Source of the DNA: an uncultured Erysipelotrichaceae bacterium
GTDB taxonomy: Bacteria > Bacillota_I > Bacilli_A > Erysipelotrichales > Erysipelotrichaceae
Length of the DNA: 38,517 bases
Reading direction: 5' to 3'
NCBI GenBank assembly: GCA_949289855.1
Contig: CASEPS010000029.1
Coordinates: forward strand, 1-38,517
The notes under the pieces were generated by a model that was given only the letters and a program-made list of their open reading frames with translations, was not told the origin of the DNA and did not search any database. Below are positions 20,695 to 32,045 of this stretch, one piece after another (position 1 is the stretch's first letter; the number at the start of each line of letters is the position of its first letter). The position numbers were made by a program, and so were the translations under genes.

Positions 20695-20715
20695 TTCTAT
20701 ACCTCCGATTTTCTA

Positions 20716-21126
20716 TCATTCTTCATGGACACCAGGCTGTATCTGTTTACGGCCTTCTTCCATTGCCATATCAAGGAACGCATCAATATCCTTGAGATAA
20801 CTTCTTGAAATGTTAGTCTCCATGACCATACCAAGGTTTACGCCACCGATCACTTCAATACGCTTTTCACCTTTGTAATCTTCCGCAAGTTCCATTGCTT
20901 CACGGAATGGTGCACCACTGGCAATGTCCGCAAAGATGACAATACCATCTATGCAATCTTTGAGAAGTTCAACCTTTTCTTTCAATTTGTCAGAAAGATC
21001 ATCTGTTGTATCTTCCTGCACATAATCCACCACTTCAAAATGTTCCGGTTTTCCGGCAAGCAGTTTCACTGCACTGTATAAGCCACTGGCAAATGTACCA
21101 TGACCTGTAACAATCAATCCAATCAT
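20716..21126 (-). CDS. PTS mannose-family IIA component
   Basis: This 136-residue cytoplasmic EIIA subunit accepts phosphate from HPr. It begins MIGLIVTGHGTFASG, with the phosphorylated histidine at H8 in the family's TGHG motif. The start at 21126 has AGGAGGG directly upstream, so the longer open frame is not used. It is the first gene of the operon, with a strong promoter upstream, and diverges from nagA. Confidence 0.93.
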   Translation of the reverse strand: MIGLIVTGHGTFASGLYSAVKLLAGKPEHFEVVDYVQEDTTDDLSDKLKEKVELLKDCIDGIVIFADIASGAPFREAMELAEDYKGEKRIEVIGGVNLGMVMETNISRSYLKDIDAFLDMAMEEGRKQIQPGVHEE

Positions 21127-22427: not shown

Positions 22428-22432
22428 TCAAC

Positions 22433-22457
22433 AGGCAGTCAATACGACTGCCTTTTT
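22433..22457 (+). terminator. Rho-independent terminator after nagA
   Basis: 8-bp stem AGGCAGTC/GACTGCCT with loop AATAC, followed by a T-run. Confidence 0.9.
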
Positions 22458-22463
22458 CATATC

Positions 22464-22493
22464 AAAAAAGGCTCCCATATTGCCCTGGGAACC
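22464..22493 (-). terminator. Rho-independent terminator after the HPr-like gene
   Basis: On the minus strand an 8-bp stem GGTTCCCA/TGGGAGCC (one G-U pair) with an 8-nt loop is followed by TTTTTT. It sits back to back with the nagA terminator. Confidence 0.85.
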
Positions 22494-22519
22494 ATGTAGA
22501 AAGGGAATCGCGAATTGAA

Positions 22520-22759
22520 TTACGCAAGAAGCATTTCTCTTGTGTAGGCACGAAGATCACTCTTGTTATCGAGAACAACAATGATGTTTCTCATGCCTCT
22601 TTTCAGCATTTCAGCAACCTTGCTTTCAGCACCTGCTTCTTTCATATTGACAGCTTCATTTCTGTTGAATCTGTTGAATTCTACTTCAACATTGCCCTTG
22701 CATTCAGCAGCGAGCTTAGCGAGCTTCTTTGGATCATTTACGTTGTAAAGTCTGAACAT
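22520..22759 (-). CDS. Small protein with HPr-like fold order but no active histidine
   Basis: This 79-residue protein has no family I can name with certainty. Its predicted order (strand 1-7, helix 10-21, strand 23-30, strand 34-38, helix 43-54, strand 56-63, helix 66-78) is the beta-alpha-beta-beta-alpha-beta-alpha order of the phosphocarrier HPr, and its length is right. The HPr phosphorylation site (GIHARP) is absent, with NDPKKL at that place, and the Ser46 region is not recognisable. AAGGAGG precedes the ATG; TATAAT lies at 22805-22800 on the minus strand, with a small GAGAC/GTCTC hairpin between. It stands alone between terminators, close to PTS genes. An HPr-like role is inference. 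Confidence 0.55.
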   Translation of the reverse strand: MFRLYNVNDPKKLAKLAAECKGNVEVEFNRFNRNEAVNMKEAGAESKVAEMLKRGMRNIIVVLDNKSDLRAYTREMLLA

Positions 22760-22799
22760 ATCTTGTCCTCCTTGAGACCTTTGTCTCTTTACAACTATG

Positions 22800-22805
22800 A
22801 TTATA
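22800..22805 (-). promoter_or_regulatory. -10 box of the HPr-like gene
   Basis: A consensus TATAAT on the minus strand lies 41 bases before the start codon. No clear -35 box is present, which would fit dependence on an activator at the palindrome just upstream. Confidence 0.4.
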
Positions 22806-22835
22806 TTGACGACAGAGTGGATCTGTTAGGACACA

Positions 22836-22876
22836 ATTTCCAATGAAATAGTACAATATTGTCATGAATTGGAAAT
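22836..22876. repeat. Nested palindrome upstream of the HPr-like gene
   Basis: Outer perfect 9-bp arms ATTTCCAAT (22836-22844) and ATTGGAAAT (22868-22876) enclose a second perfect 10-bp palindrome ACAATATTGT (22853-22862). It lies about 30 bp beyond the -10 box, where an activator or repressor could bind. The remaining stretch to 22996 holds one further hairpin (GCTCAA 22912-22917, TTGAGC 22925-22930) and no gene that I can see. Confidence 0.5.
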
Positions 22877-22996
22877 GTTGTTAAATCTGTGTGAAGACAA
22901 TCAGATCACTTGCTCAATGCATCGGTTGAGCATCGCATGATGATAATTTTCTCTTAAGCCACCGGATGTTAAAAAGCAAAAAACATATTGCCTGCA

Positions 22997-26734: not shown

Positions 26735-27817
26735 TTAATATTTCTGAATGTAGAAGTTAATGGTATTTCCATTATTTGATAAATCATAGGACCATGATCC
26801 ATCGAAACTATATTGACCCTCATTATATGTTGCAGAACAGCCTGCCATTGAGCTTACAATTGCACCAAATTTAGACTGTGCTTCAGATGCGGACTCAATA
26901 GTTTCTTCAGGCGGATACCAGAATGCCTGACAAGCATTTGTAACAGTAGATCCACTTCCGTTGTTAGAAGAATCATTATTGGAGCCTCCGTTATTAGACG
27001 ATGCTCCACTTCCGCTACCTGCATTTGCATTTGAGTTTGTATCAGTCTGCTGCTGTGTTGTAGTCTGCTGTTGAGCTTCTTCAGATACGGGTCTGTCCAC
27101 ATGCTTAGCAATCTTGACAACGATTGTGTCACCACGTTTGACAATTGCACCATTAGCTACAGATACAGAAGCGATAGCACCATCCTGAAGCATTTCACTT
27201 TCCTCTTCTTCAAAGGAAATTGTTACACCCCATTTATCACCCCATGCCTGGATGTCTTCTCTGCTCATTGTTGCAAGGTCTGGAACAGTGATTTCATCTG
27301 TGACAAGCTTGACTTCAATAGCATCTGTACGCAGTACTTCATTTCCAGCTTCTGGAGTCATACTGATGAATGTGTCCTTCTCAATAGAAGCATCTTCAAC
27401 AGCTTCATATACATATGTTACGGCTGTGAAGTGATACTTGTTGAACCATTCTTCAATCTCGGCCTTCTTCTTACCAGTGAAGTCTGGTAATTCAAAGAGT
27501 GCCTTTTCATCTGGTCCAAGAGACAGTGTAAGCTGCAGTGTATCATCCGCTTCAAGAACAGCTCCCTCTTCAAGGGACTGTTCCATAACGATGTCAACTT
27601 CTACATCTTCGCTATAGTCATAGACAAGCTGAACCTGTTCTTCTGTATCATACTTTTCAATCCAGTTTTCTACAGTTGCTTTATCAGATCCAACAAAGTC
27701 CGGAACAGCAATTCCATTAGAGGAACCGTTGTTGTAATAGGCATATACTGCAGTACCAGTACCTGCAGTCAATACTGCTGCAGCAATAGCACTGATTATA
27801 AATTTAGCTTTAAACAT
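26735..27817 (-). CDS. Membrane-anchored protein with three PASTA-like repeats
   Basis: This 360-residue protein has an N-terminal membrane anchor or signal (about 5-27). Three PASTA-like repeats follow (about 36-105, 106-175, 176-240), each starting with a xxPD[FL] element and ending ...V.RGDTIVVKIAK-like. Then comes a long Gln/Ser/Asn/Gly-rich spacer (about 245-295) and a 65-residue C-terminal domain with two cysteines. PASTA domains bind peptidoglycan and usually belong to Ser/Thr kinases or penicillin-binding proteins; neither is fused here. The start at 27817 fits the GGAGG site best. It follows the glucosaminidase gene by 11 bp, so the two are probably co-expressed at the cell wall. Confidence 0.8.
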   Translation of the reverse strand: MFKAKFIISAIAAAVLTAGTGTAVYAYYNNGSSNGIAVPDFVGSDKATVENWIEKYDTEEQVQLVYDYSEDVEVDIVMEQSLEEGAVLEADDTLQLTLSLGPDEKALFELPDFTGKKKAEIEEWFNKYHFTAVTYVYEAVEDASIEKDTFISMTPEAGNEVLRTDAIEVKLVTDEITVPDLATMSREDIQAWGDKWGVTISFEEEESEMLQDGAIASVSVANGAIVKRGDTIVVKIAKHVDRPVSEEAQQQTTTQQQTDTNSNANAGSGSGASSNNGGSNNDSSNNGSGSTVTNACQAFWYPPEETIESASEAQSKFGAIVSSMAGCSATYNEGQYSFDGSWSYDLSNNGNTINFYIQKY

Positions 27818-27828
27818 CATAACCTCCA

Positions 27829-30450
27829 TCAGCCAATTTCTTCTACGGTCAATTCATATCTGTAACGAGTATTTGAACGAACAAGTTCAAAGGTCTTTGT
27901 ATCTGTTGATCCAGAATAATTCGTTCTGTCCAGACTATATGTCTCAAAAACGTCTCTGTATTCATCTGTAGTAATACTCGTCCATAGACGATAGTGTCCC
28001 GGAGCAAGATTTGTTAAATCAGCATCCAGATCATATGAAGCAAATGACAGATCTTTGTCAGACGAAGTAATCGTAGCAAAATCTCTTGTACTATCTTTCA
28101 AAGTAGCAGTAAACGATGTCAGATTTCCATTGTCATCTTCAAGATAGAATGTCAATATAGGATTCAAATCTGCTTTCTGATCTGCATCGATCATATAAAC
28201 ATAACCATCAGAAACAGTCAGGTGACCATTTTCTACTGAAATACCAGCTGTACCTAACACAGTTTTTCTCCAGGAAGGTCTGGTTACTTCATCAAGTTTC
28301 AGATCTGCACTTTCAATCTCTTTAGAAATTGAAAGTCTGTTTCTAAACAGGGAATCACTGAAGACCCTTGTCGTATATCCATCATCACCAGAATACTTAT
28401 AATTCTTCTTATCAATGTTGAATTGGAGATCCTTTGTAATATCATACTCACCATTTACAACTCTGAGATTGATCGTGTAGTTACCTGGCTGCAGATCCTT
28501 AATTGAGAATACTGCTTCATAGTTTACGTACTTGTAATGTTTCCAGAACTTTGTAGACATTTCTTCATTCAAGACACTCTTTGCCTCGAATTCAGTCTTT
28601 TCGCCAGTCTCTGTATTTTCTAATACAACATAATGCTTAACTGAATTTTCATCATCTGCTTTTGCACCAGAAATGTATCCAAGTCCCTTAATAGTTACTG
28701 TATCATTTTCAACAGAAACATCAGTCACACCACGTTCGAGATCAAATGTAGAAATTGCCTCAATGACACTATCTGGATATCCGCCAGTATTATCATCAGT
28801 CTCAGGTACATCCACACTGCCTGCAGGTGTTCCATTTGTAAGAACTGTGACATAGTCTTTGTTAATCCATGCTACATAGGCATCCCAGTTGTAGGCCTTA
28901 CCATTGGAGTATTCTCTGCCATTGTAAGCAGAAGCTCTTGTCAGGTTGCCATTGATGAGATGGTCAGAAGACTGAATCTTGTACTTGCCATTAGCTTCAC
29001 CAAGAATAGTGACGGTATATGCCTTTTCATAGTATGTACCACCCGGGTTCTTGATATTGAAGAAATGGGAGTTGTCTGTAGAACTTCTGTTGAACCATAC
29101 ATCAGTACTGCTGCTTACAACACCAACAGTAGTTGTGTATCTGTCTTTGAAACCTGTGTACTTATCAATCTCATAGGCATAGTGAGCAATGTTAATACCC
29201 CAGTAAGCATCAGAAGCATATTTGACATTGAAACCATTACCCTTGTTACCAATCTGCATACCAAAATGACGGCTGTCATCCACATCGAGATAACCATTGA
29301 GGTTTGTATGCATATGTTCATTGATCGCCTGTCCTACAGAACCAAAGTAAGAAGCATTGTTTGGATTGGAGTCTACCGCATTCCAGCCAAAGAGGTTGTT
29401 TCTGTTCAATGCATAGTTACTTGTTCCAAAACCAGATTCCTGGATAGCAAGTGCATAGACAAGCAGTGCATTGACACCATATGTGTTCTGGGCACTGACA
29501 AAGGTATCACCTGTGCCATACATAGCAGAACGTCCAGCTGTATAGCCCTTACCCATCAGGTAGTTGTTGAAATCAGCACCAGTGATATTGGACTTTGTTC
29601 TTGCCGGAAGGAACTGATAGTAATCATAGTAAGTTCCAGCTTTGTTATTCATTGCCATATCGGTATAGAAGTCATAACCGTTATAGCTGTAATATGTAGT
29701 ACCTGGCTGCATCCAATCAGCAGCAGAAAGGGAAACACCCTGTCTGTTCGGTGTAGCATTTGTACTGGAAGGAACCTGTACGCTGTTACTCCAGCCCCAA
29801 TAGGAATAAAAGTAGAGTTCCTTGTTACCAGCATTGTCTGTACCACAGACATACTTATTCATTTCCGGATAAATGGTATATTCCGGATCTTCATTGTTAT
29901 TTCCACCAAGAATAATAGGCAGATGGTTTGTGAAGTACTTGATTGGTACGAGGTCACAGTTTTCCATTCTGATGTAACCTTCAAAACCATTCATCGTCAA
30001 TGCAACAGAACCAGAACCATTCCCGGAATTGTAAGAAGCAGTTCCATTGTACTTACCCTGCATATACTGCTGGGAATATGTTGTGGAACCAGTGAAGTCT
30101 CCTCTTTCATAATAGTAAGAAAGACTATCTCCTGTTCTGTATGGATTGGAGATGACAATACCGTTTGTCATGGCAACAATCTTTGTCGGGGATTTGCTGG
30201 CGTTGTTTCTTACAACCGCATCCTGGCCAAGACTCTGCATTGCCTTCTTTGCTTCATCAAAATTGTTATAACATCCTTTATGGTCAAAACCACCCTGATC
30301 ATTTACGACATCAACATCGAATACACATCCCTGGTGAATCGCATAGTCACCAGTGTTGATTGCATTTACTTCTGTCACATTTGCCTGTACAACCGGTACG
30401 AAAAGGCAGAGCGTCGCAATTGTCAGAAAAGCTCTTTTTATCATTTTCAT
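27829..30450 (-). CDS. Secreted endo-beta-N-acetylglucosaminidase-type peptidoglycan hydrolase
   Basis: This 873-residue secreted protein has a signal peptide (about 1-23, ending VVQA). The N-terminal region of about 250 residues includes a small repeat-like domain (40-100, with DEAKKAMQ) and unknown sequence. The glucosaminidase domain (about 285-440) has the GH73-type LVYALAIQESGFGTS (330-344) with probable catalytic E338, then NRNNLFGWNA. A region like SH3 (about 470-540, KAYTVTILGEANGKYKIQSSDH) may bind the wall. The C-terminal 300 residues form beta-rich repeats of unknown role. The enzyme would cut the glycan chain of peptidoglycan. GAGG lies before the start. A very long leader precedes it and a PASTA protein gene follows. 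Confidence 0.85.
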   Translation of the reverse strand: MKMIKRAFLTIATLCLFVPVVQANVTEVNAINTGDYAIHQGCVFDVDVVNDQGGFDHKGCYNNFDEAKKAMQSLGQDAVVRNNASKSPTKIVAMTNGIVISNPYRTGDSLSYYYERGDFTGSTTYSQQYMQGKYNGTASYNSGNGSGSVALTMNGFEGYIRMENCDLVPIKYFTNHLPIILGGNNNEDPEYTIYPEMNKYVCGTDNAGNKELYFYSYWGWSNSVQVPSSTNATPNRQGVSLSAADWMQPGTTYYSYNGYDFYTDMAMNNKAGTYYDYYQFLPARTKSNITGADFNNYLMGKGYTAGRSAMYGTGDTFVSAQNTYGVNALLVYALAIQESGFGTSNYALNRNNLFGWNAVDSNPNNASYFGSVGQAINEHMHTNLNGYLDVDDSRHFGMQIGNKGNGFNVKYASDAYWGINIAHYAYEIDKYTGFKDRYTTTVGVVSSSTDVWFNRSSTDNSHFFNIKNPGGTYYEKAYTVTILGEANGKYKIQSSDHLINGNLTRASAYNGREYSNGKAYNWDAYVAWINKDYVTVLTNGTPAGSVDVPETDDNTGGYPDSVIEAISTFDLERGVTDVSVENDTVTIKGLGYISGAKADDENSVKHYVVLENTETGEKTEFEAKSVLNEEMSTKFWKHYKYVNYEAVFSIKDLQPGNYTINLRVVNGEYDITKDLQFNIDKKNYKYSGDDGYTTRVFSDSLFRNRLSISKEIESADLKLDEVTRPSWRKTVLGTAGISVENGHLTVSDGYVYMIDADQKADLNPILTFYLEDDNGNLTSFTATLKDSTRDFATITSSDKDLSFASYDLDADLTNLAPGHYRLWTSITTDEYRDVFETYSLDRTNYSGSTDTKTFELVRSNTRYRYELTVEEIG

Positions 30451-30937
30451 TATCGTTAATCCTCGTTTCGAAGTCCTTCAAGGGTACAAAAAACCCGTTG
30501 AAAAGCAGATCATGCAATTTCACATAATACAGGTGTGAAATTACGACACAAGACCGATCAATACTCGTCAGTTCATACAGCAGGAGCCTCATGGGGCACA
30601 AATGAAATGCTTGAAGACTGCTTTTATGTATCACGCATAAAACTGTTGGGTATGCGTTAACCCTGTCTTCTTCCTGAGGCAGACTGACATTTGCCTTGAT
30701 GAAGAAGCTTCGTTCCTGTTACGTACATCTATCTGAGTTCGAGACGTCAGTTTGCATCAGCTGGTTCAGATCAGTGAGTGCCCCTGACAAACAGATAAAG
30801 CCTTGCAGGAATATAACATGTGAAACATATCAGATGAAGATAGCCTCACAGCTGACGAACATTGTCTGCATGCACAGCTGAATGAGAGCTGTTGATCCGC
30901 GCTTCGAGTAACGGGGAAAGCAGGACAAAATTCTTCA
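30451..30937 (-). other. Long, probably structured 5' leader of the glucosaminidase mRNA
   Basis: About 490 bases without a credible gene lie between an extended -10 promoter (30943-30948) and the glucosaminidase start. Read on the minus strand it contains several hairpins: ACAGCT/AGCTGT near 30880, ACGCATA/TATGCGT around 30633-30657, TTTCACA/TGTGAAA around 30518-30540, and GGGT/ACCC near 30480-30495. The last lies about 30 bases before the start and includes a T-run, so it could be an attenuator. I could not match it to any riboswitch or housekeeping RNA that I know (ydaO, T-box, GEMM, M-box, 6S, tmRNA and RNase P were considered). A short 30-codon frame at its 5' end lacks a ribosome site. 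Confidence 0.5.
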
Positions 30938-30942
30938 TGGTT

Positions 30943-30948
30943 ATTATA
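30943..30948 (-). promoter_or_regulatory. Extended -10 promoter of the glucosaminidase transcript
   Basis: TGTTATAAT on the minus strand is an exact extended -10 element, directly after the rseP terminator hairpin. No good -35 box is present, as is common for extended -10 promoters. Confidence 0.5.
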
Positions 30949-30980
30949 ACAAAAGCATGACAGTTCGCCATGCTTTTGTT
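30948..30980 (-). terminator. Terminator after rseP
   Basis: Perfect 12-bp stem AACAAAAGCATG/CATGCTTTTGTT with a 9-nt loop, ten bases after the rseP stop. The T-rich end is partly inside the stem. Confidence 0.75.
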
Positions 30981-30989
30981 AATATTTGT

Positions 30990-32045
30990 TCAAAATAACC
31001 GGATTATGTCATTCCATGTCACATAAACCATCAGACCAATCAATAACGCCCAACACGTTAACATCAATCCAACACGGATTTTTTCATTCAATCTTCGATG
31101 GGCGACTGCTTCTGCGACCGTAATGACAAACTGTCCACCATCAAGAACCGGTAGTGGCAAAGCGTTGAAAATGCCAAGGTTCAATGACAATTGTGCTATC
31201 AACAGAAGATAGCTTTCAAACCCCATCTTCACATATGTGTCTGTTGCCTGATAGATACCAACAGGACCTGACAAATTGGAAAGTCCTGCACCCTGGAAGA
31301 TATTGACAATTGCCTGGAACATAAGACGCGTCAGCATGATCATCTCATAACCGCCATAATACCAGCAGTTGGCAAGATTCACATCAACCGCTTTGCTTTT
31401 TGCTGCATTGACACCAATCATGTAACGCTCTTCATTCTCGTCATATATCGGAGTGACGCTCATCACTTCTTCAGTACCATCACGCTCTACAGTAATGGTC
31501 AAAGTGCTGTCATCGGTGACAAATGTCTGCATATCAATAAACTCAGCAGGTTTGATGGATGAACCATCTTCCTTCACAATTTTGACAATCTTGTCCCCTT
31601 CTTCAAAGCCTGCTGTTTCAGCAGGACTGCCAGCAATAATGGAATCGACAACAGGTTCTGGTGATGTAGAAATTCTGCCTGCCGCAAGGACAACCATACA
31701 GAAGATGAAATAGGCAAGAAGAATATTGTTGAAGATACCCGCCAGCTGGATGATGGCTCTCTTCCACCAGACAAGGTCGGTAATCCTTCTGCCTTCAGGA
31801 ACTTTGACATCCGGATAAACTTCTTCATCACTATCCTCCCCTGCCATGGCTACATAACCACCAATAGGAAGGGCACGGATGGAGTATTGTGTTTCCTTGA
31901 ACTTCTTCGAGAAAAGAAGTGGACCCATACCAAAAGAAAATTCATAGCAGTATACGCCAAATTTCTTGGCAGCAAGAAGGTGTCCTGCTTCATGAATCAT
32001 AATGATGACCGTGAACAGCAGGATAAATAATATAAATGTCAGCAT
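30990..32045 (-). CDS. rseP: Site-2 intramembrane metalloprotease RseP
   Basis: The 351-residue S2P-family protease cleaves membrane proteins within the bilayer. HEAGH (about 18-22) is the zinc-binding HExxH motif in the first membrane helix. A PDZ domain (about 125-200) includes GSPAETAGFEEGDKIV. FNALPLPVLDGG near residue 300 supplies the third metal ligand in the NxxPxPxLDG motif. It is the last gene of uppS-cdsA-dxr-rseP, overlapping dxr by 7 bp. In Bacillota its targets are typically anti-sigma factors and signal-peptide remnants; the target here is unknown. Confidence 0.96.
   Translation of the reverse strand: MLTFILFILLFTVIIMIHEAGHLLAAKKFGVYCYEFSFGMGPLLFSKKFKETQYSIRALPIGGYVAMAGEDSDEEVYPDVKVPEGRRITDLVWWKRAIIQLAGIFNNILLAYFIFCMVVLAAGRISTSPEPVVDSIIAGSPAETAGFEEGDKIVKIVKEDGSSIKPAEFIDMQTFVTDDSTLTITVERDGTEEVMSVTPIYDENEERYMIGVNAAKSKAVDVNLANCWYYGGYEMIMLTRLMFQAIVNIFQGAGLSNLSGPVGIYQATDTYVKMGFESYLLLIAQLSLNLGIFNALPLPVLDGGQFVITVAEAVAHRRLNEKIRVGLMLTCWALLIGLMVYVTWNDIIRLF

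Follow-up and report, generated by a model that had tools for sequence, protein, structure and literature searches.

A Probable Structured Leader RNA in Front of a Secreted Glucosaminidase Gene in One Lineage of Erysipelotrichaceae

Introduction

The expression of peptidoglycan hydrolase genes must be tightly controlled. In the window, that is, the whole stretch of 38,517 nucleotides from an uncultured gut bacterium of the Erysipelotrichaceae that was analysed here, the gene for one such enzyme, a secreted glucosaminidase, is preceded by a long gap, and the question raised by this locus is whether the gap gives rise to an RNA and whether that RNA acts on the gene behind it. Large leader RNAs that are structured but have no known function are seldom met with, and it is usually their wide spread that leads to their discovery; the leader described below is absent from Rfam, stands before a peptidoglycan hydrolase gene and appears to be confined to one lineage. 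The gap probably makes a functional RNA, which may control the glucosaminidase.

Locus and Promoter

The genes concerned lie on the minus strand, in the order rseP (32045-30990), a hairpin with a -10 element, a gap of ~490 nt, the glucosaminidase gene and a gene for a PASTA protein. The upstream gene (30990-32045) encodes an rseP-type site-2 protease (Pfam PF02163), the glucosaminidase gene (27829-30450) a secreted protein of 873 aa (Pfam PF01832, 44.8 bits against a cut-off of 30.2), and the third gene (26735-27829), the start of which overlaps the glucosaminidase stop, a PASTA-domain protein (Pfam PF03793). The exact extended -10 element reported in an initial annotation of this DNA, TGTTATAAT (TGnTATAAT), was recovered by direct reading on the minus strand (30943-30951) and is presumed to be the leader promoter. 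A good -35 element was not found for it and a consensus promoter scan omits it; the TTATAAT of the -10 is kept in alignment with the corresponding region of Lactimicrobium massiliense Marseille-P4301 (G033). A terminator-like hairpin of rseP, AACAAAAGCATG-gcgaactgt-CATGCTTTTGTT (30950-30982, minus strand; -18.7 kcal/mol, z -7.6), overlaps this promoter, its 3′ arm running into the extended -10 (30982-30950). The -10 of the next transcript is hence overlapped by the terminator-like hairpin of the preceding gene (30943-30982), and the arrangement in L. massiliense is similar, with an equivalent hairpin and T-run in the corresponding position.

In many relatives rseP and the glucosaminidase gene are joined by other genes, the common arrangement being, whole or in part, rseP-galE-331-aa gene-glucosaminidase. 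In most of them the gene directly upstream of the glucosaminidase encodes a protein of 310-345 aa, hydrophobic at its N-terminus and without a Pfam family (L008-L031, ~1000 to 10 nt upstream of the glucosaminidase gene). This arrangement would suit a functionless spacer remaining where galE and/or the 331-aa gene had been lost, as would the fact that the 331-aa gene was not detected in any of the five long-gap genomes (the window, L. massiliense, G052, G047, and G051). However, neither galE nor the 331-aa protein is traceable in the window leader, since profiles of both gave no match in six frames, and a pseudogene of either was rejected on these grounds. Nor, whichever frame was taken, did the L. 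massiliense leader contain a counterpart to any ORF segment of the window leader, in agreement with the earlier description of these ~490 bases as free of a credible gene. The conservation described below, kept over ~0.9 changes per RseP site, also argues against a relic, as a decaying spacer would lose its structure and loop words, and we regard this explanation as improbable.

Predicted Fold of the Window Leader

The leader as a whole (30451-30940, minus strand), the syntenic homologue of which lies in the L. massiliense locus (L004:4154-4710, minus strand), has a minimum free energy of -149.4 kcal/mol compared with -128.8 (sd 5.6) for shuffled sequences (z -3.67), and none of 100 shuffles was as good. 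The several hairpins noted earlier proved to be part of a larger architecture (all positions on the minus strand). At the 5′ end is one arm of a closing helix, P1 (30893-30917; TCC, CGTT, TCGAAG, and GCGGATCA), which in the fold is paired with a 3′ arm, CTTCGAAACGAGGA (30460-30473; pair probabilities 0.8-1.0), that includes the likely Shine-Dalgarno GAGG. Hairpin Ha (ACAGCT/AGCTGT; 30874-30892; helix probability 0.98) is followed by the invariant word CATGCAGA, and the two together constitute the most conserved block, which was used in a covariance model of the 5′ domain (R2). The long-range helix P2 is formed by CAATGTTCGTCAG (30852-30864; probability 0.97) and CTGACGAGTATTG (30559-30571), the latter containing the word CTGACGA found in both leaders. 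P2 encloses hairpin Hb (30819-30850), the long hairpin Hc (30713-30811) with CTGAAC in its terminal loop, Hd (30667-30707; stems CTTCTTC/GAAGAAG and AGGCA/TGCCT) with GTCAG in its loop, He (30633-30657; ACGCATA/TATGCGT) and Hf (30574-30628), which from the fold and a hand alignment carries GCATnnCATTnGTGC at its apex. Beyond P2 follow Hg (30514-30544; loop CCTGTAT), with a probability of 0.98 in the window, and Hh (30475-30504; -9.4 kcal/mol), which was not seen in L. massiliense.

The initial annotation had placed a T-run beside a hairpin near the start codon and had considered an attenuator. The T-run (TTTTTT) is present ~40 nt before the ATG, but lies inside the loop of Hh, AACGGGTTTTTTGTACCCTT; with the T-run in a hairpin loop rather than behind a stem, this is not a canonical terminator. 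A terminator scan on the strand of the gene found none between the promoter and the glucosaminidase start, either in the window or in L. massiliense, and the proposal of an intrinsic attenuator was not upheld.

The reverse complement of the leader also folds better than its shuffles (z -2.3 and -2.8), as would be expected if the functional RNA were instead an antisense RNA from the plus strand. This is the least probable of the readings considered, as the promoter and the gene context are on the minus strand in both species, the z-score of the window is stronger for the minus strand (-3.67 vs -2.33), and G-U pairs in Hb would become A-C on the other strand.

Comparison with the Lactimicrobium massiliense Leader

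In L. massiliense, 557 nt separate rseP from the glucosaminidase gene. The glucosaminidases of the two genomes are ~50% identical and the RseP proteins ~62-64%, the block from pyk to a rubredoxin-like gene is largely syntenic, and the RseP tree places the two in one supported group with G056, ~0.9 changes per site apart. When the whole leaders are aligned as DNA most letters differ, and what is shared is a series of short identical words, kept in order and situated mainly in hairpin loops. In nhmmer searches against 60 kb of G033 the leader was alone among 14 intergenic regions of the window in giving a significant match, which fell in the syntenic place (E 3.5e-5), although the value of this comparison as a control is limited by the shortness of most of the others.

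The separately computed minimum free energy folds agree in Ha, CATGCAGA and a P2 helix enclosing Hb, Hc, Hd, He, and Hf. The P2 counterpart in L. massiliense is GATTCG/CGAATC in the same place (probability 0.52), and the same long hairpin Hc with the same loop word is present. The stems of Hd correspond to CTGCAG/CTGCAG and GCGGA/TCCGC and that of He to CGTGC/GCACG; for Hg, the same loop word could be enclosed by a stem TTTCTG/CAGAAA, which is absent from the minimum free energy fold. In a hand alignment of Hd to Hf, 17 of 32 comparable pairs were changed on both sides and the other 15 were unchanged, with none changed on one side and none broken; this count leans towards structure, as the alignment was fitted to it, and the covariation is pairwise, from two sequences. 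The structural alignment was not recovered by MAFFT, and a covariance model built from one sequence for the 3′ domain (Hd-Hf) proved too weak to recognize the L. massiliense leader.

As a less biased test, a purpose-written program that folds and aligns simultaneously was applied to the two leaders, and gave z-scores of 5.2 and 6.9 over dinucleotide shuffles in two settings. When sequence was given no weight, the structure-only score was 210 compared with 141 (sd 17.6, maximum 179) for shuffles of about equal stability (z 3.95); for comparison, the scores were 127-128 with an unrelated long leader and 163 with the L. massiliense leader reversed. As far as two sequences allow, there is good support for conservation of the leader structure between the window and L. 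massiliense. The compensatory changes in corresponding helices answer in part the covariation check proposed with the initial annotation, which had envisaged homologous leaders from related genomes. Taken with the searches of Rfam below, the shared shape and sequence of two syntenic leaders support the earlier suggestion of an undescribed structured RNA, most likely acting in cis, and the leader is probably real and lineage-specific. L. massiliense is a named isolate, in which transcripts could be mapped and structures probed.

Relationship to Known RNAs

Searches of Rfam 15 with the window leader gave nothing at the gathering score and one chance hit to a eukaryotic snoRNA (E 3.7). With the threshold relaxed to E 5, chance matches to eukaryotic snoRNAs were all that the leaders of the window and L. 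massiliense returned; Rfam searches of related leaders gave nothing useful. The previous failure to recognize a known riboswitch core in the region is in line with this result. Conserved loop contacts are a feature of the large RNAs ROOL, GOLLD, and OLE. The existence of such RNAs (PMC12286853), and the control of cell-wall peptidase genes elsewhere by c-di-AMP riboswitches, one of which is known in front of such a gene (PMC9960051), would allow the leader to belong to a known riboswitch or large RNA family from which it has diverged beyond the reach of Rfam. The window leader resembles the c-di-AMP (ydaO/yuaA) riboswitch (RF00379) in being a likely cis-acting leader of a cell-wall hydrolase gene, but its length exceeds that of the 134-position model three- to fourfold; a model search for RF00379 found no match in the window or in the whole genome (95.7% complete), and the link to c-di-AMP that had been raised for this locus is not borne out. 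With ROOL, GOLLD, and OLE it shares a length of several hundred nt and a multi-branched shape, whereas it has no Rfam match, stands directly before one gene with no terminator between them, and is known from two species only. Given that either leader yields chance snoRNA matches alone, descent from a known family is very unlikely.

Proposed Mechanism

It is proposed that the region forms the 5′ leader of a glucosaminidase-PASTA transcript, which, judging from the -10 element, would start just behind the rseP terminator and carry a structured RNA of ~430-490 nt. In this RNA, P2 would close a multi-branched domain whose hairpin loops carry the conserved words and which is flanked by Ha and Hg. 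Since no terminator was found between RNA and gene, read-through into the glucosaminidase is expected and control in cis is favoured. Such control would be exerted on translation, with P1 holding the GAGG against the leader 5′ end (UCCCCGUU/AACGAGGA), and the opening and closing of P1 would be set by folding of the large domain or by something that the domain binds.

In the window the Shine-Dalgarno core is predicted to pair with the leader 5′ end with probabilities of 0.94-1.0, the A at -13 being unpaired. At the L. massiliense ribosome site AGGAATCAC pairs with GTGATTTCT, a sequence next to Hg (probability ~0.6), so that the anti-Shine-Dalgarno partner is not the same in the two leaders. The mean unpaired probability from -16 to -5 is 0.47 in the window versus 0.39 in shuffles and 0.25 versus 0.33 in L. 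massiliense, so that in neither species does the site stand out clearly from shuffled leaders as occluded. Translational control through P1 is our best guess, made from these predicted pairings with occlusion averages that are not clearly beyond those of shuffles. As a whole, a conserved structured cis-acting leader, with P1-based translational control as the preferred mode, is the explanation to which we give somewhat better than even chances. The bolder proposal, of a new family of structured RNA of ~450 nt that arose in the Lactimicrobium lineage and controls the secreted glucosaminidase in response to a signal, cell-wall-related or other, sensed by its conserved hairpin loops, is put forward only tentatively.

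A promoter of its own behind a terminator in both species, together with the compact multi-branched fold of ~430 nt and its conserved loop words, could also belong to a free-standing large non-coding RNA, acting in trans or as a scaffold, that lies upstream of the gene by chance or is cut from the glucosaminidase mRNA. In the window, CCCCGTT might pair with AACGGG just before TTTTTT, which would provide a terminator-like end. The scan, however, finds no terminator separating the RNA from the gene, a T-run is missing from the 3′ end of the RNA in L. massiliense, and the RNA is found solely in front of the glucosaminidase gene; we consider a free-standing RNA doubtful, albeit less so than a relic.

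Distribution and Other Long Leaders

The genome of the window belongs to a broad Erysipelotrichaceae genus, covered here by 70 species, and the wider search covered 272 genomes of the family. Among the rseP ends of 30 genomes and the upstream sides of the glucosaminidase gene at ~30 loci, the order rseP-long gap-glucosaminidase was found elsewhere only in L. massiliense. A DNA search of 60 genomes of the genus with the leader recovered only itself. The Ha pattern with three mismatches and the R2 model, each searched against the 272 genomes, found L. massiliense besides the window and no third member, the remaining R2 matches, with E 0.04-0.5 calculated per genome, being at chance level for 272 genomes. 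Conservation among relatives, the lack of which the initial annotation had named as a refutation, thus extends to one relative, and the search detected no such RNA in the other 270 genomes. Against plasmids and phages blastn gave chance matches only, and the Ha pattern was found in none of the viral contigs.

Three further genomes, G052 and G047 (L005 and L006) and G051 (L085), have a promoter followed by ~320-670 nt before a homologous glucosaminidase, and the five long-leader genomes are not grouped together on the RseP tree. Neither L005 (z 0.3) nor L006 (z 1.5) resembled the window leader significantly in structure, and structural kinship with these two was rejected on this basis; the comparison of L004 with L006 gave z 2.7, and the L007/L085 leader was compared by score alone, without shuffles. 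The L005 and L006 leaders share a different element of 66 nt (L005:1336-1440, with its homologue at the 3′ end of the L006 leader), which is 83% identical between G052 and G047 and has a T-run at its end. In L005 it can fold as a stem ending GUCC-UUUUUU. A GGACCC further downstream offers an alternative partner for GGGUCC, and its GGACC could in turn be paired, in L005, with GGUCC-UUUUUU; the element is a possible attenuator before these related glucosaminidases.

Two further long intergenic gaps in the window flank nagA (22428-22996, 569 nt; 20695-21125, 431 nt), the first of which has a weak nhmmer match of 147 nt to G033 (E 0.003) in a non-syntenic place. In L. massiliense, the stretch between the nagA and PASTA genes (L004:1-385, minus strand) gives a match to the Rfam cspA thermoregulator, which is cut off by the end of the locus and falls below the gathering score (58.7 vs 78 bits, E 1e-12).
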